From a virus: a stretch of DNA of 21,066 nucleotides. Position 1 is the first letter of the stretch, and every line of letters starts with the position of its first letter. Location: positions 1 through 21,066 of IMG/VR virus record IMGVR_UViG_3300017743_000174; one strand, written 5' to 3'. Below, one piece after another: positions 1 to 16,099 of this stretch. The notes beneath the pieces were generated by a model that saw only the letters and a program-made list of their open reading frames with translations, was not told the DNA's origin and did no database searches. Both the position numbers and the translations under genes were made by a program.

Positions 1-123
1 TACAAGTTGTTCGTATATACTTCTAAATTCTTCTCGCATAACCCAAGGCATATTCTTTTTAGTTCTTGATTTACAATCAAGTCTATATGCTTCGTCTAAA
101 TCTTTTTCTCTGTATAGTATCAT
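1..123 (-). CDS. Small hypothetical protein, N-terminal part only
   Basis: The first 41 codons of a gene that runs off the left edge. It begins MILYREKDLDEAYRLDCKSR and continues with charged, helix-like sequence to ...EEFRSIYEQLV. Its ATG overlaps the TGA of the preceding 1353-residue ejection protein in an ATGA arrangement (positions 120-123). I see no Shine-Dalgarno upstream, so translation probably depends on coupling to that gene. No domain is recognisable. From its place just after the ejection block it could be another late or packaging-associated small protein, but nothing in the sequence shows this. The reading frame is credible because it is open to the edge and tightly coupled. Confidence 0.7.
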   Translation of the reverse strand, partial: MILYREKDLDEAYRLDCKSRTKKNMPWVMREEFRSIYEQLV

Positions 124-587
124 CGTGTAGTATTTATAACTTCTAATTTATTTATAGCATTTACAAAGTCTTCAACTCTGGTAGGAGTTTGTGCTTTCCA
201 TTTAGATTCACCACCTTCTGCACTACCTGTGCTTATTTGTTTTATTGCTTCTTGATAATTTTTTTCTTTTAAAGCTTTAACAGCACTAGGGAATTTATTT
301 TCCCAGTTTACACCTAATTGAAAATTAACACTCCCTAAAGCTTCTATAAATTTACCACTAGAAATACCATATTCTTTTGCTTGTTGTCTTGCAGCTTTAA
401 TGGCTTTTTCTGAATCTGTTTTTAACCAACTATTTATAATATCTTGTTCTATTTTATCACCAACTTTATATTTTTTTCGTTCTTCACTAGTGAGTAAGTG
501 ACCAACTCCTCCGGTTGGTTTATCTAATGTATCTAAATATACTTCATCTCTTAAACCTTCTCTGGCTTTTAAATGTTCTAAAAAGTT
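120..587 (-). other. GH24 (T4-lysozyme-type) domain inside the 1353-residue protein
   Basis: Residues 1199-1353. The N-terminal lobe reads LKAREGLRDEVYLDT followed by DKPTGGVGHLLTSEE, aligning with T4 lysozyme around its catalytic Glu, Asp and Thr. The C-terminal lobe has NFQLGVNWENKFPSAVKAL and KWKAQTPTRVEDF, matching the T4 regions NMVFQMG...FTNSLRML and RWYNQTPNRAKRV. The triad is complete, so an active muramidase is expected. No separate endolysin gene is visible in the window. Confidence 0.88.
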
Positions 588-3500
588 ATTCATGTCAAAC
601 TCGTCACTAGCAAGACCACCAGCATTCATTTGTTTTCTAGCTCTTAATTTATCTAATAATCCACCATTATTAACAAGCACTCTTTCTTCTTCATCTTTCA
701 TAATGCTACCTGCTTGTTCATCATAAGGCACACCTGTCATCTTATCTATTCTTTCATCAGGCTCTTGAGGTACTTGAGGAACATCTGTAACTAAACCACC
801 TTTATCATAGTTTATTCTTTGTTCATTTAAAATATATTTAGATAAAAATTCTTTTCGTGATTTGTCTAGTTCTCTACCTTTTCTTTTAATATTTTTAAAA
901 GATATAGCACCTAGCTCTGAATCTTCTGGTATAGCTGAAGTTAATCCTACAAATGGTAAATTACTAGCAGCCATTTCTCCGATACCTTTTCTATATAAAA
1001 GCATATCTATTACATCTTGAGCTAAAGGACCAGTTGGAGTTTTTAAAGCAACACCTAAATCACCACCACCAATTTTATAATTTTCATACCATCTTCTACC
1101 ATAATCACCTATACCTAAACCTCCCCATCTTTGTACAGCATCTAGTACTATTTCTCTGTTATCTTCAAAATTATCTGAATCAAATAATTCTCCGGGTTTT
1201 AAAGTTTCTAAGTCTTCAAAGTTTTTAGCATCACTACGAATTGTATTAGTAAGTACAGCAGTAGCAGTCATTAACATAGAAGCAGCTAATACTTTAGGAG
1301 CTACAATTTCTGGTTTATCCATTTCATTAACAAATCTTTTTAATACAGTATTATTAAATACAGTAGGATATCCAGCAAACTGAACTAATAATTGTCCTGC
1401 TGGGCTAGAAAACCATAAAGGTCTATTAGCTTCAGCGACACTTGGATTTAAAATAACTTCTTTAGTAAATCTATTAGCTGCTGGAATATATTGTTGAGTA
1501 TAAAAATCATCTTCTTTAGCTAGTTCATCATTAAACTTACCATCTTTATAATATTTTTGATACCAAGTAGTTGCATCTTTATCATCAACTCCTAATTCAT
1601 TAAGTTGGTCAGTTAAGTATTTTTTAGTTCGCTTGTCATTCATACCAAACATACTTAAAGATTTACCTTCAGTTTTATTTAAATGTAACTTTCTAGCATT
1701 TTCTTTAATCATTCGCTTACCAGTAGTAAACGAAGCTAACTGTACAGCAGTAGTCCATTGTTGTAATAAATTAGCTTGAAAGAATCCTTGTGATAATCTT
1801 CTAGCTACACTACCTTCTAATGCTTCACCAGTTAAACTTTCTAATCTTTCCATTACAGATTGTTCTAAAGCTAATCCTGTTTTATATATTTCTGCCCATG
1901 TATCATCATCAACATCTTTTAAACCTTTTGTAGTTTTACCAGTAGTAACTCTATAAGAAGCTCTAGCAGCTTTATTTAAAGTTTTATAAGTTTCTTTACC
2001 TAAAGATTTAACTATATCTTTTATAACAAAAGGAGTATCTTTAACTCCTGTTCTTGATATTAAAATTAATGGTTCAGTTAAACTGGAAATTGTAGCAAAA
2101 GGTAAGTGAGCCATTTGTTGAGAAAGTCTTCCCCATGTAGAAAAGTTTTGTCCTGTTTGACTTTTAAATGTTTTACCATCTAATAGTCCAGTACCGTTAT
2201 CTAAACCAGTAACTTTATTATGCATTACTTTAAGATTTTCTCTAATTGCAAAAGCATCTGCTCTATCCATACCAGCATCCATTAATTCTTTTTCAATAGG
2301 AAGTAAAAATCTTTCATTAAAATCTTGTGCAGTACGACCAAATTTTTTAGTTCTTTCAATAGTCTGAGCAGCACTAACAAGATAATCAGATAAAACATCT
2401 TCAACATTATTATCCATAAATTCAACTAATTCTCTATCAGGAATATTATCAAAGACTCTGTGTTTTAAAAATCCATAACCACCAGTACCTGTTTCATATG
2501 CTGTATCAAATGGAGTGTATTTATACTCAATCATATTATCAACAATATCTGTAGCTTTTAATCTTCTAGCTTCTGGTAAGATTCTATTTTGCATTACTTC
2601 ATCAGAAATATCATCACTAAATATTCTTAATTCTTTTTTAGCTTCTTCAATAAAGTTTTTTCCAAACACTTGCATATCTATTGCTACTGCATCTGGTAAA
2701 ACAATATCTTCTACTTCCATATCACCAACTGTTCCTTTTACCGTTGGTAAATCATTTAAAGGTTCAGCGTGTTTATATTCTTTTTGAGATACTAAATTAA
2801 TTAATTTTTGTCTACCTTCTTTACTAGATATTTTATCAAAAGCAAACTTTCTAGGAAAATAATTTTCTACAAATTGACTAAAAGTAAATAAGTTTTCTTC
2901 TTTACCATCTTCAAAAACTCTTTGTAAAAGTTTTCTAATATCATTAGAAGCTTGTTGTGCGTATTCATTTATAGGTTCACCATTAAGAGTTTTAAGTTTT
3001 GGATTTAAAAGTAAAGCTCTTACTTGATTATTATCAGAAGTTGTTAGTCTTCCCCACCAACCTGTTCTATCTAAATTTTTTAAAGATTTTTTTAAATCAA
3101 AAAGATAATCACCTTGTCTTCTTGCTACACCTAAACCATAAGAATCTTTTCTTACTCCACCTTCACCTCTATTAAAAAATTGAACATCCCAATCGTATCT
3201 AAATCTACGAAGTAATTCTTTTAAAGTTTCAGAAGAACCTGCTAGTTTTACATATCTAGCTGTAGGTTTTTCTGCCATAATTTGTGAAAGAAATTTAATT
3301 GGATTCTTACCAGCTTTAGAACTATCAGATAATGAACTTAAATTTTCATATTGTGTTTGTCCTGCTCTACTCCAACCATCAGTATCCCATCCCGATGTTT
3401 GTTTAATAATATCATCTTCATTACTATACTTAAATAAATTTTTAGCAAACTCAGAGTTAGATAGTTTTGTTATTCCTGCAGTTGCTCCTCCACCTAAAAC

Positions 3501-4181
3501 TGCTCCTAAACCAGATGTAAGAGCTACTTGACTCCAATCTATATCATCACCATAAACATCATAGTCAATAGCTTGATTAAAATAGTCATAACTACCTCCC
3601 CAAACAGAACCTTCTGCTGCTCCATAAATTCCTGCTTTACCTGTTTTAGAAGCCATTAGTTTTTTTATACCAAACTTAGCAGTCTCTGTAGCTGTTTTTG
3701 CAACTGCTGTAGAAGCTCCTCCAGTAACAGGAGCAAACATTAAAGCAATAATGTTAAGTGGGTCAGCAACTATATCAATACTTAAATCTTTAGCTAAACC
3801 CATACGTTCTTTAAAGCCTCTAACTTCTGCATTTTGAAAAGCATTACTTAAGTATGCATAGTCTTCTTTTTGCTCATCAGTCCAGTTACCAGTTTGAAAT
3901 GAACGAACCATAGCTGAACTTAAACTATATTCAGAGTCTCTAAGATATTCAAAAACATTATCGTTACTACCAACACCTTCTAAAAATCTTTCAGCTCTTA
4001 ACTTAAACTCAGGAGTTCTTGCTAGTTGCGACATAGATTTTTTACGAGTTCCTCTTTGTTGTCCTTGTTGAAATGAAGGATTAAAAATATTTGTATTTTT
4101 ATTTTGAGGTATATGAGAAGGTTGAGATTCTTTAGTATTAGAGATACTTGATGTATCATCCATAAAAAACATATCAGGCAT
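120..4181 (-). CDS. Large internal virion (ejection) protein with C-terminal GH24 lysozyme domain, T7 gp16-like
   Basis: At 1353 residues it is close in size to T7 gp16 (about 1318) and sits last in the ejection block, as gp16 does. Residues 1-60 are polar and disordered-looking. A hydrophobic Gly/Ala-rich stretch lies near 133-240 (including DPLNIIALMFAPVTGG), and a second hydrophobic stretch near 920-980 follows the motif PLWFSSPAGQLLVQFAG. Residues 1120-1190 form a linker with three Gly-Gly motifs (DKGGLV, NNGGLL, NAGGLA). Residues 1199-1353 are a T4-lysozyme-type domain with E1208, D1217 and T1223 at the same spacing as the T4 triad E11/D20/T26. T7 gp16 instead carries a lytic transglycosylase at its N-terminus, so the enzyme differs in type and position. 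Its Shine-Dalgarno GAGGAA lies in the last codons of the 757-residue gene. Likely role: delivered into the cell envelope, where it locally opens peptidoglycan during DNA entry. The ejection role is inferred from size, order and hydrophobic segments. Confidence 0.75.
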   Translation of the reverse strand: MPDMFFMDDTSSISNTKESQPSHIPQNKNTNIFNPSFQQGQQRGTRKKSMSQLARTPEFKLRAERFLEGVGSNDNVFEYLRDSEYSLSSAMVRSFQTGNWTDEQKEDYAYLSNAFQNAEVRGFKERMGLAKDLSIDIVADPLNIIALMFAPVTGGASTAVAKTATETAKFGIKKLMASKTGKAGIYGAAEGSVWGGSYDYFNQAIDYDVYGDDIDWSQVALTSGLGAVLGGGATAGITKLSNSEFAKNLFKYSNEDDIIKQTSGWDTDGWSRAGQTQYENLSSLSDSSKAGKNPIKFLSQIMAEKPTARYVKLAGSSETLKELLRRFRYDWDVQFFNRGEGGVRKDSYGLGVARRQGDYLFDLKKSLKNLDRTGWWGRLTTSDNNQVRALLLNPKLKTLNGEPINEYAQQASNDIRKLLQRVFEDGKEENLFTFSQFVENYFPRKFAFDKISSKEGRQKLINLVSQKEYKHAEPLNDLPTVKGTVGDMEVEDIVLPDAVAIDMQVFGKNFIEEAKKELRIFSDDISDEVMQNRILPEARRLKATDIVDNMIEYKYTPFDTAYETGTGGYGFLKHRVFDNIPDRELVEFMDNNVEDVLSDYLVSAAQTIERTKKFGRTAQDFNERFLLPIEKELMDAGMDRADAFAIRENLKVMHNKVTGLDNGTGLLDGKTFKSQTGQNFSTWGRLSQQMAHLPFATISSLTEPLILISRTGVKDTPFVIKDIVKSLGKETYKTLNKAARASYRVTTGKTTKGLKDVDDDTWAEIYKTGLALEQSVMERLESLTGEALEGSVARRLSQGFFQANLLQQWTTAVQLASFTTGKRMIKENARKLHLNKTEGKSLSMFGMNDKRTKKYLTDQLNELGVDDKDATTWYQKYYKDGKFNDELAKEDDFYTQQYIPAANRFTKEVILNPSVAEANRPLWFSSPAGQLLVQFAGYPTVFNNTVLKRFVNEMDKPEIVAPKVLAASMLMTATAVLTNTIRSDAKNFEDLETLKPGELFDSDNFEDNREIVLDAVQRWGGLGIGDYGRRWYENYKIGGGDLGVALKTPTGPLAQDVIDMLLYRKGIGEMAASNLPFVGLTSAIPEDSELGAISFKNIKRKGRELDKSRKEFLSKYILNEQRINYDKGGLVTDVPQVPQEPDERIDKMTGVPYDEQAGSIMKDEEERVLVNNGGLLDKLRARKQMNAGGLASDEFDMNNFLEHLKAREGLRDEVYLDTLDKPTGGVGHLLTSEERKKYKVGDKIEQDIINSWLKTDSEKAIKAARQQAKEYGISSGKFIEALGSVNFQLGVNWENKFPSAVKALKEKNYQEAIKQISTGSAEGGESKWKAQTPTRVEDFVNAINKLEVINTTR

Positions 4182-4184
4182 TAT

Positions 4185-6458
4185 TTATTCCTCGTCTTCT
4201 GTTTTACTTCTTGGATTTACAGATAGTGGAGAGTCTGGACTTAATAAAGAAGCACCTGAACCAATAGCTGTACCACCTGCTAATATTCTTGTAGGTAGTT
4301 TTAAATCTTTAATTACTTTACTACCTGTTTCTTTAACTATATTTGGACCCATTTGTGTATAAGAAATTTTACTAGGAAGACCACCTCCTTTTTGTATTGC
4401 TTTTTCTCCTACTTCTTTAAGAATTTTAGCTTTTCTAGCTTGGAACATTAAATTAGCTCCTCTAAAACCTTGTGCTGCAAGTGCACCTATTCTTGTAATT
4501 CCAGCAGCTATATATGTTTGAGGTGAAGGAACAACCATAAGAGCTAATGCAGCAGCATTTAAACCTAATATAAGGTTTTGTGTAGTATCTAAACCTTTTG
4601 AAACTTCTATTATTTCTTCTCTAACTTCTTCAGGTATATCTTTTATTTCAATAATTTCTTCTGTGACATAATCATCAACTTTTGCTATTCTATAAATTTC
4701 ATTAAGGTCAACTATGTTAGGATTATAAACAGATTCAAAGTTTTTAATGTAGTTTATTTTTTCTTTTTTAGTTAATGAAGTACTAATAATATCAGACTCA
4801 TTAGCTTTTTCCATATTAGAAAATACAACTGATTCTGGTTTTTCAATATTATCATTTAATAAATATTTTAATCTTTCAAAAGCTACAATTTCTTGGTCAC
4901 CTAAATCTGTTACTTTACCTTCTTGAGCTGCTTCCATTAATTTTATTTTTTTATCTAAAGTTGCTGTTACAATTTCTTTAGCTCCAACATCTAATAACTC
5001 ATCATCTTCAAACTGGTCTGCTTTTCTTTCTTGAACATTTTTAAATTTTGTAAAATCATAACCAGCTTTTAAAGATTTATTAAATTCTTCACTAAGACTA
5101 TTTGTTATTATAGTATCAGCTTTTGTACCTTCTAATCTAACATTTTGTAAATAAGCTGTATTAATAATATTAGTCATAGTTAAATCATCTTTATTATTTA
5201 AACCTGTTGAAATATTTTGATAAGCAGCTATGCCAGTAGAATTAATTACTAAATCTTCTAAAGGTTTATATTCTTTACCAAATTCACCTTCTCCTAATCT
5301 ATGACTTAATAGTCTATGAGCTGTAGCATCTAATTCTTCTTCAGTTGATAATCTTAAATTTTCATTTTCAGTTTGAGCATACTCTTCAGAAGCTCTAATT
5401 ACACTTTTTATTTTACCAAAATCATTAGCATATACATTTATTGGTGATGAGTTTTGTTCAGCACCATCAATATTATAAATTTTAAATTTGTTTAATTGTT
5501 TTGCATTAAAATCTAATGTGCCTAATTCATTATTTTCTTTTGTATATTGTAATTCTAAACCTAATGAGTCTGTAACTCCACCAGTTTTAGGAGTTATTTT
5601 CTTTTTAAATGCTTTTATATATTCATCAGCTAATTCTGGTTTTGCACCAAAGACTACATCAGTGTAATACTGTTTAGTAATATTTCCATCTTTAGGTAAT
5701 TTTAAATTATATTTATTAAATACATTATTTTTAAAATTATTTTCTTTTTCTTTTATACGTTGATAAAAAGTTAAAGGTTTTTGTAAAGCTACTTCTAACT
5801 CAGCATCTTCTACAGCTGCTGGATACTCTTTAGACTCTGGAGTTCCTTTCCACCATTTTTTAAGACCATTAACTACATCACCAACAATAGTATCTGGTTG
5901 TGCTTGAATTTTAGTTATTTCTCTAACTAAGTCTTGATTTATTTTTGTACCAAAACTAGCTTTATTAGGAGTAGAAATAAAAGGACTTTCAGCATATCTT
6001 TCTAAAGCAAATATTTCTAATTGTTTTTGATTTTCTTTCCATTTATTAATACTATTTAAAATATCTTTTCTATTAGTTTTAGTATAATCAATTCCTTCTG
6101 CTGTTAATTTTTGCACTAAATCAGAATTTACTAATTTTTTATTTACTAATTCATTTAATAAAAATTCTCTTTCTTCTGGTTTTTGATATCTTTGATAAAG
6201 TTTTCTTTGAGGGTCTGCTGCTGCAAACTCTTCATTAAGTTCTGCAAAAACATTTTGATATTGATTTGTTACTGCATCTTTTTGTCTATTTTTTTCATCA
6301 ACTGTAGCTTGATTATAATTAGCAATATAATTAGGTAAACTTGATAGTATCATTATACCTACATCTTTAGCAGTAATACTTTCTTGTTCTCTTTTTCTAT
6401 TAGCTAATATAGAATTAACTACTTCATTTGTTTGAGCATTTTTAAAAAAATCAGACAT
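4185..6458 (-). CDS. Internal virion (ejection) protein candidate, T7 gp15-like by size and position
   Basis: 757 residues, next to the lysozyme-bearing protein; T7 gp15 is about 747 residues and sits in the same place. Most of it is charged, Lys/Glu/Asn-rich and predicted helical, with no catalytic motif that I recognise. Two hydrophobic stretches lie near the C-terminus, about residues 629-643 (LILGLNAAALALMVV) and 650-664 (TYIAAGITRIGALAA), followed by a basic segment and an acidic tail ending KTEDEE. These could insert into a membrane during ejection. The ATG overlaps the previous stop by one base (TAATG), with AGAGGA as Shine-Dalgarno. Function is inferred from size, order and the neighbouring gp16-like protein; sequence identity to gp15 is not apparent to me. 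Confidence 0.6.
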   Translation of the reverse strand: MSDFFKNAQTNEVVNSILANRKREQESITAKDVGIMILSSLPNYIANYNQATVDEKNRQKDAVTNQYQNVFAELNEEFAAADPQRKLYQRYQKPEEREFLLNELVNKKLVNSDLVQKLTAEGIDYTKTNRKDILNSINKWKENQKQLEIFALERYAESPFISTPNKASFGTKINQDLVREITKIQAQPDTIVGDVVNGLKKWWKGTPESKEYPAAVEDAELEVALQKPLTFYQRIKEKENNFKNNVFNKYNLKLPKDGNITKQYYTDVVFGAKPELADEYIKAFKKKITPKTGGVTDSLGLELQYTKENNELGTLDFNAKQLNKFKIYNIDGAEQNSSPINVYANDFGKIKSVIRASEEYAQTENENLRLSTEEELDATAHRLLSHRLGEGEFGKEYKPLEDLVINSTGIAAYQNISTGLNNKDDLTMTNIINTAYLQNVRLEGTKADTIITNSLSEEFNKSLKAGYDFTKFKNVQERKADQFEDDELLDVGAKEIVTATLDKKIKLMEAAQEGKVTDLGDQEIVAFERLKYLLNDNIEKPESVVFSNMEKANESDIISTSLTKKEKINYIKNFESVYNPNIVDLNEIYRIAKVDDYVTEEIIEIKDIPEEVREEIIEVSKGLDTTQNLILGLNAAALALMVVPSPQTYIAAGITRIGALAAQGFRGANLMFQARKAKILKEVGEKAIQKGGGLPSKISYTQMGPNIVKETGSKVIKDLKLPTRILAGGTAIGSGASLLSPDSPLSVNPRSKTEDEE

Positions 6459-7198
6459 TATATTTTCCTCTCTAGTAAGCTTGGTACTTCAACGCTTTTT
6501 AATTTTTCTCTTAAATTTTCTGGTACAGTTTCTTCTCTAATAGGTTTAGATGTTGCTGTTTGTTTCATTGAATTTATAGCATTACCTAGTTGAAAAGAAG
6601 TTTCTTCACTATCTGATTTAATATTTTCTTCATCTTCTCCTTCACCTAACTCATAATCAATATTAGCTTTTTCACCTATACCCATAACTAAATACATAGT
6701 AGGTTCCATTAATAACATTAATACATCTGGATTATATTTACCTTCGGTAAAATCAGTATATAAGATTGTAGTTGTAATATCAGATACTGTAGCTCCAGCT
6801 TTTAAAGATTTAGCTATAGCAGCAGTAGCTTCTGGTTGTAATAGTCTACCATATAAATCTTCAATAGCATCTTTAGGACTAGAAAACTGTGTTTCTTTTT
6901 CCCAAGGATAAGGACTTTCTGGGCTATTAGTTAAAGATTGTCCGGGTATAGGTGCTTTAGATTGCAACTTAATAAACTCATTAATTTTTTCTTCATCAGC
7001 AATATCAGAAGTATCATCAACTGGAATCTTAGATTCAGGAGCATTAAGGTCTACACCTAACTGTCCTACTAATTCTTCCACACTAAGACCATTAGCTTCT
7101 GCTAGTTTAATTGCATCCATAGTAGCTGTAGTTAAGCTATTAGATTTTAATTTACTAGCATCTGCTAAAACATTTTTTAATTTATTTTCTTCTGACAT
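6458..7198 (-). CDS. Hypothetical virion-region protein, 246 residues
   Basis: An acidic, soluble-looking protein. Residues 1-80 are helical and contain NGLSVEELVGQLGVDL. A middle section, about 105-180, has DLYGRLLQPEATAAIAKSL and PDVLMLLMEPTMYLVMGIG. An acidic stretch (EGEDEENIKSDSEE) precedes a short basic C-terminus. No enzyme motif or transmembrane helix is clear, although the MLLMEPTMYLVMG stretch is hydrophobic. Both ends overlap their neighbours by one base (TAATG), with AGGA as Shine-Dalgarno. Its place between the Ala-rich and gp15-like proteins suggests a structural or ejection role, or a chaperone for its large partners. This is a guess from context. Confidence 0.5.
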   Translation of the reverse strand: MSEENKLKNVLADASKLKSNSLTTATMDAIKLAEANGLSVEELVGQLGVDLNAPESKIPVDDTSDIADEEKINEFIKLQSKAPIPGQSLTNSPESPYPWEKETQFSSPKDAIEDLYGRLLQPEATAAIAKSLKAGATVSDITTTILYTDFTEGKYNPDVLMLLMEPTMYLVMGIGEKANIDYELGEGEDEENIKSDSEETSFQLGNAINSMKQTATSKPIREETVPENLREKLKSVEVPSLLERKI

Positions 7199-7896
7199 TA
7201 AATTATTCCTAATTTTTGAGTAATATTAATTGGTTGAGCACCTACACCATATTCTAAAGGTCTTATAGGAGTTACACCTGCATTAATATCAAATTGTGTT
7301 TGAGTTGGAGTATAACCTATGCCTTGAGTACCTGCAAGAGTTCTATCTTCTTGCATTAATCCAGCCATAGTACCATATTTTTTTTCTTCTGGTGGGTCTT
7401 GTAACTCACTTAAACCATATTGAAAAGCACTAGTACCTAACATAGTAGCTCCTGTGCCACCAGCAACTGTATAAGCTTTTGCAGCTGTACCTGTTAATCC
7501 TAAACTTGTAGCACTAATACCTGTAGTAGCTCCTGCTAAACTAGAAGTTGTTACACCAGCGTTAACAGCTGCTGTTGCATTTACTCCTGCAACTGTTGTT
7601 GGAGTTAAACCAGCTGCTAGTTCTGCACTTGCTGTTGCTAATTGAGTACTTGTTATTCCTTGAGCTGCTGCTATTTGAGAAGCTGTTACAGTTCCTAAAG
7701 ATGCACTTGTAACTCCTGCTGCTTGAGCTGCTATAGCTGCTTCTGCTACAGTTGCAGAAACACCTGCTGAAGTTGCTACACTAGTAACTGTTGCTCCCGG
7801 AGCTGCTGCAGCTGTTAAAGCTGCTGAATTTACTCCAGCTCCAGCTGCTGTTGAAGCTGCTCCACCTGTAGCACCAGAACCCCAATAACCAGCCAT
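7198..7896 (-). CDS. Ala/Thr/Gly-rich virion-region protein, probably longer than its ATG start indicates
   Basis: From the first in-frame ATG the product has 232 residues beginning MAGYWGSGATGG. Most of it, about residues 8-160, is low-complexity Ala/Thr/Val/Gly (for example VATSAGVSATVAEAAIAAQA), with imperfect repeats of the type AxGVTxxSLAxxTA. The last 60 residues are ordinary and contain YGLSELQDPPEEKKYG. The ATG at 7896 is poorly placed, with GGAG only two bases away, and the same frame stays open upstream for 43 more codons coding for a basic then hydrophobic segment (see 7897-8025). The full protein is therefore probably about 275 residues with a membrane-active N-terminus. It may correspond to T7 gp14, the smallest ejection protein, which also has an N-terminal membrane segment. 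That link is an inference from position and architecture only. Confidence 0.6.
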   Translation of the reverse strand: MAGYWGSGATGGAASTAAGAGVNSAALTAAAAPGATVTSVATSAGVSATVAEAAIAAQAAGVTSASLGTVTASQIAAAQGITSTQLATASAELAAGLTPTTVAGVNATAAVNAGVTTSSLAGATTGISATSLGLTGTAAKAYTVAGGTGATMLGTSAFQYGLSELQDPPEEKKYGTMAGLMQEDRTLAGTQGIGYTPTQTQFDINAGVTPIRPLEYGVGAQPINITQKLGII

Positions 7897-8025
7897 AGCT
7901 CCGCCTGTAAAGATTGCTAAGCCTATTAAAGCAGCAACTTTAAACCATTTTTTACTAAAAAGTTTTTTAATACCTTTACCGATTTTTCTAATACCTTTAG
8001 CTACTTTTTTAAATATTTTTTTTAT
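7897..8025 (-). other. In-frame N-terminal extension of the Ala-rich protein, lacking a normal start codon
   Basis: Forty-three open codons lead straight into the ATG at 7896. They encode a Lys-rich amphipathic part (KKIFKKVAKGIRKIGKGIKK) followed by LFSKKWFKV and a hydrophobic segment AALIGLAIFTGGA. This looks like genuine protein: a cationic helix followed by a membrane segment, a layout I recall at the start of other marine phage virion proteins. No ATG, GTG or TTG exists in frame between the upstream stop (8056-8058) and 7896. The most start-like codon is ATA at 8023-8025, one base away from ATG. Alternatives are a lost start codon, frameshifting or slippage in the A8 run at 8016-8023, or a homopolymer error. 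Confidence 0.65.
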
Positions 8026-8038
8026 AAATTTGAAGTCG

Positions 8039-8046
8039 CACCTCCT
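8039..8046 (-). promoter_or_regulatory. Perfect Shine-Dalgarno (AGGAGGTG) without a canonical start codon downstream
   Basis: AGGAGGTG is an eight-base match to the 16S anti-Shine-Dalgarno and one of the strongest ribosome sites in the window. The normal spacing window after it (about 8036-8030) contains no ATG, GTG or TTG. In-frame ATA at 8025 is 15 bases after AGGAGG. The site implies that translation of the Ala-rich protein begins near here rather than at 7896. Confidence 0.7.
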
Positions 8047-8076
8047 GTAAGTTTTTTACCATAAAAATTAAAATTA

Positions 8077-10224
8077 TTAAACTCCGTAACCTATAACTCC
8101 ATCCCCAACACCAGAGAAACCTTTATATTCTGTACCAGCACTACCTATTATTGAGTTTACTAAATCTTTTAAACTATCAACACTATTAGCATATTTTCCG
8201 GGATCAGCTGATAAAGCTGTTGAAATTATTTGTGATGTTCTATTCTCAGCATTTTCTGATTCTCTAAAAGCAAAGTCTGCTTGGTCTCTAAATTCTTGCC
8301 ATAAAAAAGCATTAGCAGAAGCAGTTAAATTAAAAGCATTTTGTGCATTCTGCATATTAACTGCATTTTGTGCAGCTGTAGCTGCTGTATTAGCTTGTCT
8401 TCGCCATTGTACATTAGCTGCTTCTACTTGAGCAGCATTGTTTGCATTAAATTGTTCTCTTTGAAAAGATAACTCAACATTATATTTATCTGCTTCTTGT
8501 TTTAATTTAGCATTTTCTTTAGCTATGTCAGCTGCTATTTGTGTATTTCTAGCATTAGCTGTATTTTGAGCTGCTACATTAAATTGATTTGTTGCATTTT
8601 GTTGTGCTATATTAGCTTGTGATATTTGTGCATTTAAATTAGCAGTAAATTGATTTATTTGATTTTGACTAGTAGCATTAAATTGTTTAGCAGCATTTTC
8701 TACTGCTTGATTACTCAACAATCTTTGTTGTTCTGCTTGAGCATTTAATACTATTGTTTGTTGTTCGTTACTTAAATTAGTCATATCCATAGCTAAAAAT
8801 GATTTTGCATTTTGAATAGATAATTGTGTATTGTAATTAGCTTCTGTTAAATTAGCTTGTGATAACAAAGCAGCATCTTGAATAATTCCTTGTTGTTTAG
8901 CAGAAGCATCTGTTAAACCAACTGTTTGTAAAAATTTACTATTAGATAATGCTGTTTGTTGGTCAGCACTAAACTGAGCCATATCTAATTGAAATACATT
9001 ATTAGCATTTTGTAAAGCTGTTTGTTGAGCAAACTCAGCTTCTTTAATATTAATTTGAGCTTCAATACTTCTTTCTTGATTTATAGAAGTTTGTATAGCT
9101 TGAGCATTTGATTGAGCAATAGGTAAAGCTGATTGAATAATTGCATTAAATAAATTATCTCTACCTACAGTTGAAGCACTTAATCCTCTATCAGCTAACA
9201 TTTGTTCTACAGTAGAGACTGCAGGTCTTGCCCATGTAGGTATTTCACCACTTTCAATTCCTGTTAATAAAGAATCCATTTGAGTACTAACTAAAGCTTC
9301 TTTTGGTAATCCTTCTATTAATCCTCTTTCTTCTTCTGAAACATCCATTAAAGCATTTTCAAGTGCTTCTGGGTTATTACCTAAATTACTAATAGTTTGT
9401 GAAGATATACCTGCTGTTTCTAATTGAGTTTTAGCTCTACTAACTCTTCTTAAATCTATACCAGATATTTTAGTTGCATTAGATAATGCTGCTGGACTAA
9501 GTACACCTGTAATTCTTTCAGTTAAAGCTCCTGTAGGAATTTCTACAGTAGCTGTTTGTGTAGAAGGAACTTTTTCAACTTGTAAAGTATCAGCTATAGC
9601 TTCATCACTAACAACACCTACAGCAGCTTCTGTTGTAGGAGCAGTTGGAACTAAAGAAACATCATCAATAGTTCCCGGAGTCATTGTAGGTACAGCACTT
9701 GTTTGTGCTGAATCAGCTACAGTACCTGCTTGTTCTATAGGAGGAGTAGTAATAGTATTTTGACCCATTCCTGAAACTTGAGGAACTATAGGTGTTTTAG
9801 TTCCAGTTATATATTGATTTTGTTCAGCTATAGGTGCTATAGGTTCAGGTTTAATTTCACCTGATATTATTCCTTGAGCTGTTTCTTTTGAAGTATTTGT
9901 TGCCATTGTTGTATCTGATTCTGTTGTTGATGTTGATGTTGGTGTTGGTGTTGTATTTGTTGTTGCTTTTACAAGTTGTCTATTTAATTCATTATTTATA
10001 TTTGAAGTATACTCACTAAATAATCCGGGTAATTTAGCATTATATGCATCTAAATTTTTTGTATTACCTCTAAATGCTTTAGGAGCAGGATTTTCTTTTT
10101 CATAATCAGTTTTCCATTCATCAAAAGTTTTTATACCACCATTAGCAGCTTGAACTCTACCACCTTCACGATAATCTTGTCGTACTGAACTAGTACCTGC
10201 TCTATAACCTTTACGTTTCTTCAT
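8077..10224 (-). CDS. Ala/Gln/Asn-rich virion protein, probable ejection protein
   Basis: 715 residues. It starts MKKRKGYRAGTSSVRQDYRE followed by a Gly-Gly motif (GGRVQAANGG), then an Asp/Lys-rich part, then a Thr/Pro/Ser-rich disordered region (about 85-235). The motif PTWARPAVSTVEQMLADRGL and SASTVGRDNLFNAIIQSALP lies around 330-370 and is the most conserved-looking part. From about 370 to 660 the chain is a long helical, Ala/Gln/Asn-rich region (for example QNAQNAFNLTASANAF) like the textures of T7 gp14 and of P22 ejection proteins. It ends in a short glycine tail, DGVIGYGV. There are no clear transmembrane helices or catalytic motifs. Only a weak AGG precedes the ATG, eight bases after the previous stop. 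I infer an internal, DNA-injection-associated component; a scaffold-like or tail-associated role is possible. Confidence 0.6.
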   Translation of the reverse strand: MKKRKGYRAGTSSVRQDYREGGRVQAANGGIKTFDEWKTDYEKENPAPKAFRGNTKNLDAYNAKLPGLFSEYTSNINNELNRQLVKATTNTTPTPTSTSTTESDTTMATNTSKETAQGIISGEIKPEPIAPIAEQNQYITGTKTPIVPQVSGMGQNTITTPPIEQAGTVADSAQTSAVPTMTPGTIDDVSLVPTAPTTEAAVGVVSDEAIADTLQVEKVPSTQTATVEIPTGALTERITGVLSPAALSNATKISGIDLRRVSRAKTQLETAGISSQTISNLGNNPEALENALMDVSEEERGLIEGLPKEALVSTQMDSLLTGIESGEIPTWARPAVSTVEQMLADRGLSASTVGRDNLFNAIIQSALPIAQSNAQAIQTSINQERSIEAQINIKEAEFAQQTALQNANNVFQLDMAQFSADQQTALSNSKFLQTVGLTDASAKQQGIIQDAALLSQANLTEANYNTQLSIQNAKSFLAMDMTNLSNEQQTIVLNAQAEQQRLLSNQAVENAAKQFNATSQNQINQFTANLNAQISQANIAQQNATNQFNVAAQNTANARNTQIAADIAKENAKLKQEADKYNVELSFQREQFNANNAAQVEAANVQWRRQANTAATAAQNAVNMQNAQNAFNLTASANAFLWQEFRDQADFAFRESENAENRTSQIISTALSADPGKYANSVDSLKDLVNSIIGSAGTEYKGFSGVGDGVIGYGV

Positions 10225-10840: not shown

Positions 10841-11203
10841 TTATTCTCCTTCTAAGGTTGTTATTCTTGCTTCTGCTGCTTCTAACTTTGCAGAAAGTTC
10901 TTGTATTGATTTGATTAATGGATAGATAAACATAGATTGTGCTAGACTTTCTGTGCCGTTAGAATCTTTTGACCATCCACCAAATCCAGAATGACCTACT
11001 TCATCTAATGCTGTTTTTACTTCTTGTGCTAACATACCATACAAAGTAGTTGTTGTATCCATTTCAGCTTTACCTTTACCTTCATAACCATCTGGAAAAT
11101 CATCACTGTTTCTCCAATTAAAAGTTACGGGTCTTAATTTATTAATAAAACTTAAACCTAAGTCTGTTGTATTAATGTTAGTTTTTAAATTTTGGTCAGA
11201 AAA
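10841..11203 (-). other. Peptidase S74 / intramolecular chaperone domain of fibre 2
   Basis: The C-terminal 119 residues. The motif RFSDQNLKTNI has the Ser-x4-Lys spacing of the endosialidase chaperone dyad (S911/K916). Downstream are FINKLRPVTFNWR, YGMLAQEVKTALDEVG and the terminal coiled coil SIQELSAKLEAAEARITTLE, in the usual order for this family. The AQEV motif is the conserved hallmark of the middle part. Cleavage is expected between F1633 and S1634. Confidence 0.9.
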
Positions 11204-14200
11204 TCTTGTCCAAGTTGCATTAGTATCAAAATTATTTTGAATTTTATTTCCACTTTTACCAATAGCAACTGAATTAGCACTAGAATCTATATCGTGTCCA
11301 ATAATAATATGATGGTCATTTGAACCAGCTGCTCCTCTTACATCAGAACCAATACCGATATTATAATTACCTGTTGTATTTGGTGTTGTGTCTTGAAGAG
11401 TTCGATAACCTATTGCAACATTTTCTGTACCAGTAGTATTACTATTTAATGCAAATATTCCAACTGCTACATTATTACTAGCTGTAGTATTTTCTGTTAG
11501 AGCATCTTTACCTACTGCTACGTTTCCAGCACCTGTTGTATTTGCATCTAAAGCTGTACCTCCAACTGCTACATTATTTGCTCCAGTAGTATTTAGACCT
11601 AAGGCAGTTCTTCCAATAGCTACATTACTGTCCGCTGTAGTATTTGCTTGTAATGCATCAACACCTATTGCTACGTTATTTGTTCCAGTAGTATTACTGT
11701 CCATACAATCATTACCGATTGCAACGTTTGCCTCTCCTGTGGTATTAACTTTTAATGCAAAAGTACCAACCGCTGTGTTATTAGCACCAGTAGTATTAGA
11801 ATCCATAGCATTAAAACCAGCTGCTGTATTATTTGCACCAGTAGTATTTGCTGTTAAAGAAAAACAACCTAATGCTGTATTGTTATTAGCTGTAGTATTA
11901 GCTCCTAATGCACCTTTACCAAAAGCAGCATTTTCAGAACCTGTAGTATTAGCATCAAGAGCTGTAGAACCTACTGCAGTATTGTTTGCTCCTGTGGTAA
12001 TTGCTAACAACGCTGAATTTCCAATTGCTGTGTTATCAGCACCAGTAACAGCTGTACTACCTGTTGCTCCTAAAGTAGCGTTACCTACTGCTGTGTTATT
12101 TAAACCTGTTGTTAAGTTTTGAGCAGCATAAGTACCAACTGCTACAGTGTTAGAACCTGTAGTTAAACCAACTCCAGATGAAAAACCTAACGCTGTGTTA
12201 TTAGCACCTGTGGTGTTTGCTACTAAAGCATCTGCTCCGACTGCAGTATTATTAGAAGCTGTGGTGTTACTTTGTAAAGAACCACTACCAACTGCTGTAT
12301 TAGAAGCACCTGTAGTATTTGCTCTAAGTGAATCATAACCTATTGCTGTGTTATTTGAAGCTGTAGTATTTAAACGTAGTGCATCGTGTCCAACAGCAAC
12401 ATTACTATCTCCTGTTGTGTTTGTAGCCATTGCTAATTTACCAATAGCTGTGTTTTCACTTGCAGTTGTATTGTTTAACAAAGCTTCTCTACCTATAGCA
12501 ACATTACCAGAACCAGTCGTTATAGATGACCCTGCTAATGAACCTAAAGCAGTATTTTCAGTACCTGTGGTGTTTGCTGTTAAAGCATCATATCCTATTG
12601 CAGTATTGTTGTGTGCTGTTGTGTTAGCATCTAAGGAATTTGTACCTAATGCTGTATTAGAAGCACCTGTGGTATTTGCTGTTAAAGCACCATAACCTAT
12701 TGCTGTATTACTAGATGCAGTTGTATTAGCATCTAATGCATAATTACCTATTGCTACATTATAGGCACCTGTAGTATTTGATAATAGTGAGTTTTCGCCC
12801 ACAGCTATGTTGTCAGCACCTGTAGTATTAGCATTTAAAGTATTATAACCAAAAGCTTGATTTCTACTACCTGTAGTATTATTAACTAGAGAGCTTCCAC
12901 CTACTGCTGTATTAGTAGACCCTGTAGTATTTGCTATTAAAGCACTTTTACCAACTGCGGTATTGTTAGAAGCTGTGGTGTTTGCTGTTAATGCACCTTG
13001 TCCAACTGCTGTGTTACTAGCTCCTGTAGTATTTTGTCCTAAAGCAGATGCTCCAAGTGCTGTATTGTTATCTCCAGTTGTATTAGAATCAAGAGAAAAA
13101 GCTCCTATTGCTGTGTTTAATGAACCAGTAGTAATATCGTTTAGAACATTAGCACCTACAGCTGTGTTATTGTCACCTGTAGTCAAAGCTGCAAAAACAT
13201 CTACACCTAAACCAGTATTGTAGTTAGCAGCATCTATAGTACCAGTAGCATCATCACCAAACATAATTGATGAAGTACCAAAGGCTTTATATTTTAATGC
13301 TGAACCATTAATAGTTAGTACGTCTGTTTCTGTAGTACCTGTTACGTCTAATCCTGTTGAATCTATAACTGCTCTTTGAGTACCACCAGTATCAAATCTA
13401 ATTTTATCTTCGTCAGAGCTTTCTTCTACTTGAATCATGGTATCACTATCAGCATCAACTAATTGAGTAGCTGTAGTAATACTAGTGTTTGTTGAAGTTA
13501 TTGCTTCTACTAGTACACCATTTGAAGGTGCTGAACTAAAAGTAAGAGTTGCACCACTTACTGAATAAGTAGATTTACTTTGATAAACACCATTTAAATA
13601 AACTGAAACATTATTTTCATGTACTGGTACAGTTGGTAAAGTTAAAGTAGTATCACTACCATCACCAGTCATAGTAGCTATAGTATTATTAGAACCACCT
13701 ACAGTTGTTACTGAATGGTAAACAGTTATAAGTCTACCACTAGCCGGAGCTGTAGCAAAAGTTAATGTAGTTCCTGAAATTGAATAAACATTATGAGCTT
13801 GGAAAACACCATCAATAAATACCATTAAGTTATTTTCTTCATCAGGAGCATTGCTTAATGTGAATGTAGTATCAGAACCATCACCAGTAAAGGTATTGGT
13901 ATCCATATTAGTACCACTACCACTACCAGCTATAGAACTCCATTGGTCTGTATAACCTTCAAATCTAGCAGTTTCTGAGTTGTATCTAAAGTAACCTGCT
14001 GCTGGACTTCCGGGTCTTTGAGCTGAAGTACCTACAGGTACATGTATTGAATCTGTATTAGAACCTAAATCTAAACTTACGTCAGGACTAGCATTTCCAA
14101 TTCCTACTCTATTATTTGTAGCATCAACGACTAAAGTAGTTGTATCAACAGTCAAACCATCAGATACGACTGTTCCTGTAACGTCTATACCGTCTGTTTT

Positions 14201-16099
14201 AGTAGCTAACTTAGTTGCATTGTCAAATTTTAATCTAGCTTCGCCATCTTGTATAAACTGTGCAGAAATTTCTGTTCCTGCTGCATTCATTATTCTGACA
14301 TCATCACCAAGTATTCTAATTTGTCCTGTACCTGCATCTTGAATAAAGCTATTACTACCATCATGGTAAATCTGTAAATCTGAACCTGCTCCAAAGATAG
14401 CTTTTCCATTATCGCTAAGTTTTATATCATGATTAAATATTGCTGTTCCTGCATCTGAACCATCAAGAGTTAAAGCTGTAGTATCTAAAGCACTAGCATC
14501 AGAAGTTCTGAATACTATGTCTGCATCTACTGTATTATGGTCTATGTAAGCAGTACCAGAAGATTTAAACCTTAAATTATTTTCTGCAAATATACTATCG
14601 TTAGTACCAACCAACACTTGAAGTGAAGCATCAAGAGTTCCTGTTACGTCTATTCCAGTTGAGCTAGTAGCAATTTTTACTGAATTATCGTGATATAAAA
14701 CTACAGCACCATCATCATTCATAATAGCGTAAGTGTCGCTAAAATCAGGGCTATTAAATGATATAACACTACTGCCAGTTAAATAAAGACTACCAGTTCC
14801 ACTATCGGCTATGTAAGAATGACTGCCATCGTGATAAATTTTTAAATCTGAACCTGCTCCGAATACTGCTTTATCATTATCACCAAAATTAATGTCAGCA
14901 CTTGTTGTTAAACCATCAGTTGTTATTACACCTGTAACGTCTATACCTGTTGAAGTTGTGGCTAGTTTTACGGAATTGTTGTGATAAAGCTGTATTGTTC
15001 CATCATCAACAGTATTAAGAAAAACTTCACTACCACCAGCTTTCATTAACCAAATATTGTCAGAGCCTTCTATTATTAAGTCACCAGTACCACTATCTTT
15101 TATATAACTATTAGACCCATCGTGATAGATGGATAAATCTTGTGAAGCACCAAACTGAAGTCTATCATCAGTTGTACCACTACTATCACCAAACTGTATT
15201 AGATTACCATTAGTGTCTAATGTGCCACCAAGTTGCGGACTTGTATCTTCTACAACTTCATTAGTTGCAGCAACTGTAGTATCTACATAAGCTTTAATAG
15301 ATTGTTGAGAAGCAATACCTGTAGCACTGTTTGATGCCATGTTGTCTTCATCAAGAAAAGCTTTACCGTCAAGTAAATTTAATTCAGCTGCAGTTGCAGT
15401 AACACCATCAAGGATATTTAACTCTGCTGCAGTTGATGTTACTCCATCAAGTATATTAAGTTCTGCTGCAGTTGAAGTTACTGTAGTTCCATTAAGAGCA
15501 AGAGTATCTATTTCAGCAGTGCCATCAATAAATATGTTTCGCCATTGTTGTGAAGAACTACCTAAGTCATAAGAGTCATCATCATCTGGAATAATGTTAG
15601 AATCTACATCAGCTCCAAAGACTACATTATCAGTAGCTGCATCACCCATTGTAATTGTACCACCATTAAAGGTAGTTGTTCCTGTTACTGTTAAGTTACC
15701 ACCTACAGCTACGTTGCCTGTAGTAGTTAATGAATCAGTATAAGTATCTTTAAAACGTAATGAAGTTGTTCCTAAATCTATATCACTATCAGTAACTGGA
15801 AGTAAAGCACCGTCTTGTAATCTTATTTGTTCTACTGCAGAAGAAGATACTTCAACATAAAAGCCCCATCTATTATTAGTACTGTCTATAACTATTTTAT
15901 TTAAAAAGTCTAAATCACCAATAGTATGAATGTTACCACCTTGTCCAGCAGTACCATCATGTCTGTGTCCAGTAGATGTAGCACTACTAGAAGAATATGC
16001 AAAAGCATTTACTAATTGATTAAATTCATTATTAAATAATGCTGCTGTTATAGTATCGCCATCTGCGAAAGAACTTTGTCTTGTATACGTCTGTGCCAT
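10841..16099 (-). CDS. Giant tail fibre with beta-roll-type repeat array and C-terminal peptidase S74 chaperone
   Basis: 1752 residues; the largest gene in the window. In order: an N-terminal virion-attachment-like region (1-70, with GDTITAALFNNEFNQLVNAF and GHRHDG); strand-rich fibre segments (100-205); three 13-residue TSTAAELNILDGV repeats (208-246); three modules of about 85 residues containing (L/S/K/Q)IYHDGS(N/H)S (303-643); a linker with SAQRPGSPAAGYFRYNSETA; two copies of a roughly 70-residue domain starting TGDGSDTT (738-866); about 35 copies of a 17-residue NNTAVGxxALxxNTTG repeat (976-1577); and an S74 intramolecular chaperone (about 1634-1752) with S1634 and K1639 in SDQNLK. A heptad coiled coil ends the chain. 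S74 proteins trimerise and cut themselves before the serine, so the mature fibre should end at F1633. The Shine-Dalgarno AGGAG is seven bases before the ATG. Likely a host-recognition fibre; the receptor is unknown. Confidence 0.88.
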   Translation of the reverse strand: MAQTYTRQSSFADGDTITAALFNNEFNQLVNAFAYSSSSATSTGHRHDGTAGQGGNIHTIGDLDFLNKIVIDSTNNRWGFYVEVSSSAVEQIRLQDGALLPVTDSDIDLGTTSLRFKDTYTDSLTTTGNVAVGGNLTVTGTTTFNGGTITMGDAATDNVVFGADVDSNIIPDDDDSYDLGSSSQQWRNIFIDGTAEIDTLALNGTTVTSTAAELNILDGVTSTAAELNILDGVTATAAELNLLDGKAFLDEDNMASNSATGIASQQSIKAYVDTTVAATNEVVEDTSPQLGGTLDTNGNLIQFGDSSGTTDDRLQFGASQDLSIYHDGSNSYIKDSGTGDLIIEGSDNIWLMKAGGSEVFLNTVDDGTIQLYHNNSVKLATTSTGIDVTGVITTDGLTTSADINFGDNDKAVFGAGSDLKIYHDGSHSYIADSGTGSLYLTGSSVISFNSPDFSDTYAIMNDDGAVVLYHDNSVKIATSSTGIDVTGTLDASLQVLVGTNDSIFAENNLRFKSSGTAYIDHNTVDADIVFRTSDASALDTTALTLDGSDAGTAIFNHDIKLSDNGKAIFGAGSDLQIYHDGSNSFIQDAGTGQIRILGDDVRIMNAAGTEISAQFIQDGEARLKFDNATKLATKTDGIDVTGTVVSDGLTVDTTTLVVDATNNRVGIGNASPDVSLDLGSNTDSIHVPVGTSAQRPGSPAAGYFRYNSETARFEGYTDQWSSIAGSGSGTNMDTNTFTGDGSDTTFTLSNAPDEENNLMVFIDGVFQAHNVYSISGTTLTFATAPASGRLITVYHSVTTVGGSNNTIATMTGDGSDTTLTLPTVPVHENNVSVYLNGVYQSKSTYSVSGATLTFSSAPSNGVLVEAITSTNTSITTATQLVDADSDTMIQVEESSDEDKIRFDTGGTQRAVIDSTGLDVTGTTETDVLTINGSALKYKAFGTSSIMFGDDATGTIDAANYNTGLGVDVFAALTTGDNNTAVGANVLNDITTGSLNTAIGAFSLDSNTTGDNNTALGASALGQNTTGASNTAVGQGALTANTTASNNTAVGKSALIANTTGSTNTAVGGSSLVNNTTGSRNQAFGYNTLNANTTGADNIAVGENSLLSNTTGAYNVAIGNYALDANTTASSNTAIGYGALTANTTGASNTALGTNSLDANTTAHNNTAIGYDALTANTTGTENTALGSLAGSSITTGSGNVAIGREALLNNTTASENTAIGKLAMATNTTGDSNVAVGHDALRLNTTASNNTAIGYDSLRANTTGASNTAVGSGSLQSNTTASNNTAVGADALVANTTGANNTALGFSSGVGLTTGSNTVAVGTYAAQNLTTGLNNTAVGNATLGATGSTAVTGADNTAIGNSALLAITTGANNTAVGSTALDANTTGSENAAFGKGALGANTTANNNTALGCFSLTANTTGANNTAAGFNAMDSNTTGANNTAVGTFALKVNTTGEANVAIGNDCMDSNTTGTNNVAIGVDALQANTTADSNVAIGRTALGLNTTGANNVAVGGTALDANTTGAGNVAVGKDALTENTTASNNVAVGIFALNSNTTGTENVAIGYRTLQDTTPNTTGNYNIGIGSDVRGAAGSNDHHIIIGHDIDSSANSVAIGKSGNKIQNNFDTNATWTRFSDQNLKTNINTTDLGLSFINKLRPVTFNWRNSDDFPDGYEGKGKAEMDTTTTLYGMLAQEVKTALDEVGHSGFGGWSKDSNGTESLAQSMFIYPLIKSIQELSAKLEAAEARITTLEGE
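11369..13174 (-). repeat. Tandem 51-bp repeat, about 35 units (17 residues each), in fibre 2
   Basis: Residues 976-1577 consist of consecutive units with consensus NNTAVGxxALxxNTTGA. Thirty-three of 35 units are exactly 17 residues; unit 22 has 21 (NATLGATGSTAVTG insertion) and unit 35 has 20 (TLQDTTPNTTG). The xNTAVG core resembles the left-handed parallel beta-roll repeats of YadA-type adhesin heads, and similar NTTG-rich repeats occur in S74-ending adhesins of Bacteroidetes. Nucleotide copies differ at many synonymous positions, so the array is old or has been under selection rather than freshly expanded. Confidence 0.93.
13502..13888 (-). repeat. Duplicated ~70-residue beta domain (TGDGSDTT type) in fibre 2
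   Basis: Two copies begin at residues 738 and 811 (73-residue period). Both share TGDGSDTT(F/L)TL, ENN, V(F/Y)(I/L)(D/N)GV(F/Y)Q, YS(I/V)SG, TLTF and AP(A/S) at matching positions. This looks like a small beta-sandwich repeated as a stalk element just before the 17-residue array. Confidence 0.8.
14171..15193 (-). repeat. Three IYHDG fibre modules in fibre 2
   Basis: Residues about 303-390, 406-488 and 563-643. Each contains an FG(A)xxDLxIYHDGSNSYIxDxGTG core, a strand pair, a (V/K)-(K/L)-(L/I)AT-type segment with (Y/F)(H/D)(N/D)(N/A) just before it, and a closing GIDVTG. A related single copy is in fibre 1 (19332-19397). The modules are probably beta-helical stalk segments. Confidence 0.85.
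15362..15478 (-). repeat. Three 39-bp repeats (TSTAAELNILDGV) in fibre 2
   Basis: Residues 208-246 read TSTAAELNILDGV, TSTAAELNILDGV, TATAAELNLLDGK. The first two protein copies are identical. Such AELN(I/L)LDG repeats are common in phage tail fibres and often precede a helical joint. Here they are followed by helical QQSIKAYVDTTVAATNEV. Confidence 0.9.

Follow-up and report, generated by a model that had tools for sequence, protein, structure and literature searches.

How is a gene translated that has a strong ribosome-binding site and a protein-like N terminus but no start codon between them? The question is raised by an alanine-rich gene in a 21,066-nucleotide stretch of viral DNA (IMG/VR record IMGVR_UViG_3300017743_000174, positions 1 to 21,066; hereafter, the window). 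Its ATG-based open reading frame (ORF; 7896-7198, minus strand) encodes 232 amino acids, with the first ATG at 7896 and a 3′ part that is conserved in a sister genome, the 51,452-bp contig G001. Upstream of 7896, the frame stays open on the minus strand for 53 codons, back to a TAA at 8058-8056, and ATG, GTG and TTG are absent from this whole stretch. An earlier interpretation that used the letters of the DNA alone (the sequence-only reading) had described an open frame devoid of these three codons, as is borne out across the 53 codons; its length of 43 codons is the count from an ATA and not from the TAA. After the TAA, the frame reads KTYRRCD and continues, with the TTC coding for phenylalanine, as (TTC)KFIKKIFKKVAKGIRKIGKGIKKLFSKKWFKVAALIGLAIFTGGA up to the ATG. 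The G001 copy has 47 codons from the preceding stop to its first canonical start, whereas other G001 ORFs of at least 150 codons have 0-11, two explained exceptions aside (one an antisense frame, the other a ribonucleotide reductase whose frame is broken).

The 46 codons from the TTC to the ATG (7897..8034, minus strand) encode an N-terminal extension with two recognizable parts. The first is a cationic amphipathic helix (7960..8031, minus strand), defined by its hydrophobic moment and pLDDT; the moment is 2.46, against a shuffle mean of 0.68, and none of 2,000 shuffles was as high. The second is the hydrophobic segment VAALIGLAIFTGGA (7897..7938, minus strand), with a best 15-residue Kyte-Doolittle mean of 2.05. 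AlphaFold2 predicts helices at residues 2-24 and 27-42 (the model begins at K2), the only part with usable confidence: pLDDT is about 80 over the first 20 residues and averages 43 over the whole protein. On a profile of relatives' N termini, the extension scores 24.8 bits in the window and 24.3 bits in G001, and the best of 1,000 composition-preserving shuffles reached 7.7 bits. Judged by this profile and the predicted helices, the extension is a genuine N-terminal domain, in agreement with the earlier description of a cationic helix plus hydrophobic segment forming a true protein N terminus. The accompanying warning that ATG-based annotation drops a membrane segment is likewise supported: such gene calling conceals the segment throughout the clade that carries TTC, whichever account of the start given below holds.

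Relatives were found with the downstream gene, a member of the PIPGxSLT...PWE family (6458..7198, minus strand), as a syntenic anchor, which gave 80 loci, 76 of them distant. At about 60 of the 76, the upstream gene begins with an amphipathic, lysine-rich helix plus a hydrophobic segment. Some 45 distinct versions were represented, and all start at ATG, L029 by a later ATG; L057 in this survey was a false positive. A second survey, with the motif FKKIGKGIK, returned 68 distinct frames (63 with ATG, four with GTG and one false match), and in 49 of the 68 the start lies exactly 14 codons before the motif, the modal distance. The window codon 14 before its own version of the motif, IRKIGKGIK ([F/I]xKIGKGIK), is TTC. 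The profile gives the same register: in the string tested, F10, two residues after the TTC, is matched by profile position 3, and the TTC itself by position 1 (Met). About 100 distinct relatives have ATG at this position and four have GTG; none of these relatives lacks a canonical start. Profile register and 14-codon spacing thus both put the TTC at 8034-8032 (minus strand) at the relatives' start position, 6 nt after AGGAGG. Alignment with marine phage homologues, which the sequence-only reading had proposed as a check, therefore maps Met1 to a codon three upstream of the ATA at 8025-8023 (minus strand) that it had preferred. It had also reasoned that homologues starting at MAGYW would refute the extension; relatives with the gene instead have the cationic N terminus. 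Read from these alignments, the ancestral start codon of the clade has become TTC, and a mutated start is the one option, among those listed earlier, that comparison with relatives supports. Three relatives (L026, L029 and L033; MGFLRKVGRKVKKKLNKVFG..., MGKLRKIGRKVKKGIKKLFSS...) resemble the window gene in their short cationic helix, hydrophobic segment and downstream gene, and have in common with it a short C-terminal YG[VT]G motif (YG[VT]G.P-like) that may reflect homology, the gene middle not being alignable, but differ in having an ATG start and an ordinary Shine-Dalgarno (SD) sequence.

The surroundings of the gene indicate where in the phage genome it belongs. Its order (an upstream Q/N-rich protein, this gene, the PIPGxSLT protein and large ejection proteins) is that of the HMO-2011-type podoviruses, a group described previously (PMC9038755). 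The upstream gene (8077..10224, minus strand) has HTVC103P gp59 among its relatives, along with proteins from roseophages CRP-1/2/9 and Puniceispirillum phage HMO-2011, and finds matches across HTVC103P/104P/115P/033P, CRP phages and HMO-2011. The window covers just the structural end; G001 has a terminase and an SU10-like portal. Together with the upstream gene, these tie the structural and packaging genes by homology to those of HMO-2011-type isolates. Judged by its neighbours, the gene belongs to the structural region of HMO-2011-type podoviruses, where the syntenic gene opens with the same cationic helix (MGFFKKIFKGVKKVFKKIGKGIKK...). In Pelagibacter phages, HTVC103P gp58, HTVC104P gp60 and HTVC115P gp45 occupy the same ejection-region slot, between Q/N-rich and PIPGESLT proteins with small extra genes intervening, and share the lysine-rich amphipathic N terminus followed by a hydrophobic segment; unlike the window gene, they begin with an ATG where the helix starts, and their helix array is longer and their body larger. 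Separately, the 246-aa downstream protein of the window carries an N-terminal extension of roughly 65-75 residues (6970-7198) that is absent in its HTVC103P, HTVC104P, HTVC115P and HTVC033P relatives.

Four IMG/VR contigs, G001 and three shorter ones, have AGGAGGTGTGACTTCAAATTTATAAAA in common, each from another assembly. Identity is 99.84-99.92% among the four and, in nucleotides along the compared region, about 87-97% between them and the window; for G001, it is 96.9% downstream of a swapped cassette, 93% in the region around the start and about 87-90% on longer upstream stretches. Degenerate-DNA and protein scans of IMG/VR for closer relatives returned the same four contigs and one contig without the gene, further hits being unrelated; genome_contigs yielded none, and nothing in phage records matched the gene. 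From window to G001, the gene keeps its start region and 3′ end and its Ala-rich middle is replaced: window 7470-7890 and G001 21550-21870 are wholly different within flanks that are 93-97% identical, as if by an in-frame cassette swap. The extension differs by five nonsynonymous changes and one synonymous change (dN 0.044, dS 0.035), the gene's 3′ part by five and three (dN 0.036, dS 0.070) and the neighbouring 246-aa gene by eight and nine (dN 0.014, dS 0.057). The extension's dN exceeds the neighbouring gene's about threefold (Fisher p = 0.04), and the 3′ part evolves almost as fast. Between these two genomes the extension has no purifying signature, on tiny counts and in a gene that is fast-evolving overall; it contains no stop or indel in either lineage.

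The SD sequence, AGGAGGTG (8046-8039, minus strand), is extended, with 8 nt complementary to the 3′ end of 16S rRNA, and is conserved in G001. Its duplex energy is -14.0 kcal/mol (-14.2 in G001), calculated against a proteobacterial consensus 16S 3′ end that may not be the host's. With AGGAGGUG, the window has the strongest of 69 SDs compared, the 68 relatives with the same start spacing ranging from -11.8 to -3.1 (median -7.2); the 12 other gene starts of the window reach at most -13.0. The ribosome-binding site is weakly structured (z = +1.13). In-frame codons follow AGGAGG at 0 (TGC), 3 (GAC), 6 (TTC), 9 (AAA), 12 (TTT) and 15 nt (ATA), so that none of ATG, GTG and TTG lies at the conventional 5-9 nt and TTC sits at 6 nt; the ribosome site and the 15-nt distance to the ATA are both as first described. 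Poor start codons have been reported to be compensated by stronger SDs (PMC5622118), and conserved AUA and AUU starts with extended SDs in S. aureus to work at about 10-30% of AUG (PMC13009471). The strength of the window's SD fits both observations. In line with the reported compensation, the four GTG relatives (L124, L127, L144 and L167) have stronger SDs than the ATG relatives (Mann-Whitney p = 0.009; n = 4, not independent).

On these grounds, the account that we tentatively favour, giving it a little less than an even chance, is weak non-canonical initiation of the full-length protein. The gene would encode a cationic, membrane-directed ejection-region protein of HMO-2011-type phages. Ribosomes recruited by AGGAGGUG would initiate infrequently close to the SD, either on UUC itself or, with poorer placement, on the AUA three codons later; few full-length copies would be made, and their helix and hydrophobic segment would act on the membrane of the host as DNA is ejected. 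A short form would probably also come from the internal AUG at 7896. We infer that some full-length protein is made from the TTC site and acts on the membrane in ejection. Counting in favour are the strength of the SD, the register, the N terminus kept by relatives, the weak structure of the ribosome-binding site and the open extension; in addition, the TTC/SD arrangement is common to two lineages with differing gene bodies, with the SD optimally spaced for TTC. A poor start codon behind a strong or extended SD, and the low expression expected from this pairing, recall infC, ccpN and citZ (AUA) and cvfC1 and E. coli pcnB (AUU). The codons of those genes, however, differ from AUG at the third base only and UUC at the first and third, and initiation on the UUC of the window is a prediction from sequence. 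The strong SD of such non-canonical starts is present here (AGGAGGTG), and their near-cognate codon at proper spacing is lacking, as TTC has two mismatches and the near-cognate ATA lies 15 nt away, which weighs against the favoured account on either codon. UUC, a very poor initiator, pairs with the initiator anticodon at the middle base only, and a dependence of IF3 on Watson-Crick pairing at codon positions 1 and 2 has been reported (PMC10158994); an ACA start preceded by a strong RBS was credited with function in one E. coli study (PMC6397469). The excess of nonsynonymous over synonymous changes in the extension and the SD-like site of the internal ATG also count against it. Should the full-length protein be made, an abundant group of marine phages would supply a natural instance of initiation on a codon whose pairing with initiator tRNA is limited to the middle base, and the extent to which SD strength can stand in for start-codon pairing could be tested cleanly. 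A stronger version, that this phage clade uses UUC as a natural, maintained initiation codon of a virion-region gene, enabled by the eight-nucleotide SD and perhaps keeping a membrane-active ejection protein at few copies per virion, appears unlikely on present sequence comparisons.

The chief rival, to which we give nearly as much weight as to the favoured account, is that the change to TTC ended initiation at the old site. Translation would then start at the internal ATG (7896), giving a 232-aa protein without the membrane segment and leaving the extension and SD as recent remnants: an N-terminal truncation of an ejection protein caught in the act. The missing near-cognate codon at a proper distance from the SD and the missing purifying signature both point this way, as do the SD-like AGGCGGAG/AGGTGGAG ahead of the internal ATG (-5.8 in the window and -7.2 in G001) and an extra in-frame ATG gained in G001, six codons upstream of the ATG common to both genomes. 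HTVC033P, moreover, has a syntenic 114-aa protein without the lysine-rich N terminus. Such a loss would require the domain to be dispensable, yet about 100 relatives keep this N terminus with a canonical start. It also sits poorly with an SD that is the strongest of its set and kept in both lineages, and with an extension that is still open and still amphipathic.

Initiation at the ATA would yield MKKIFKKVAKG..., the whole domain but three residues, ATA being codon 4 of the relatives. It is the best near-cognate codon in the 53-codon stretch, and the AUA starts of infC, ccpN and citZ do work in S. aureus; at 15 nt from AGGAGG it nevertheless falls outside the 5-9 nt found in most relatives, and homology puts Met1 on the TTC. 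We consider this route improbable, and the earlier choice of ATA as the start probably wrong. Far less probable still is entry from an ATG or GTG further upstream in the +2 frame, by frameshifting or transcriptional slippage at the A8 run (8023-8016). The +2 frame of the window holds a 17-codon ATG mini-ORF (8009..8062, minus strand) that overlaps the SD and the A8 run, where a shift would lead into the extension frame; it is the window's only frameshift route from a canonical start. In G001, however, the +2 frame is closed by a TGA right after the SD and before the run, the +1 frame ends at a TAA before the run in both genomes, and relatives start at the SD and not upstream; we rejected the route for G001. 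An error of sequencing, assembly or consensus at the start codon, including the one-base error proposed earlier, is scarcely credible even for metagenome contigs, because the window and four contigs, each of a different further assembly, agree exactly in the TTC and its context, ATG to TTC takes more than one base change, and no usable G001 frame offers a canonical start. Two further candidates were rejected: an unusual tRNA encoded by the phage (neither the window nor the 51-kb sister contig contains a tRNA gene) and an intron or structured RNA (no Rfam match in the window, and a start region that folds no better than shuffles).

The internal virion proteins gp14-gp16 of phage T7 comprise a small protein and then proteins of roughly 750 and 1,350 aa, the last with a murein-degrading domain. 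The window resembles this set by analogy of layout only, with no sequence match found. Its 1353-aa ejection protein (120-4181) carries a C-terminal Phage_lysozyme domain (PF00959, residues 1206-1324); T7 gp16 has a similar layout, with the lytic domain at the other end. Elsewhere in the window, a 1752-aa tail-fibre-like protein (10841-16099) contains long NTTGxxNTAxGxxAL repeats; several long antisense ORFs (11739-13223) result from them and are probably not genes. On the minus strand of G001, a gene resembling the ribonucleotide reductase large subunit is split by a frame change at 15207-15225 (reverse-complement coordinates), reflecting either an error or a real break.
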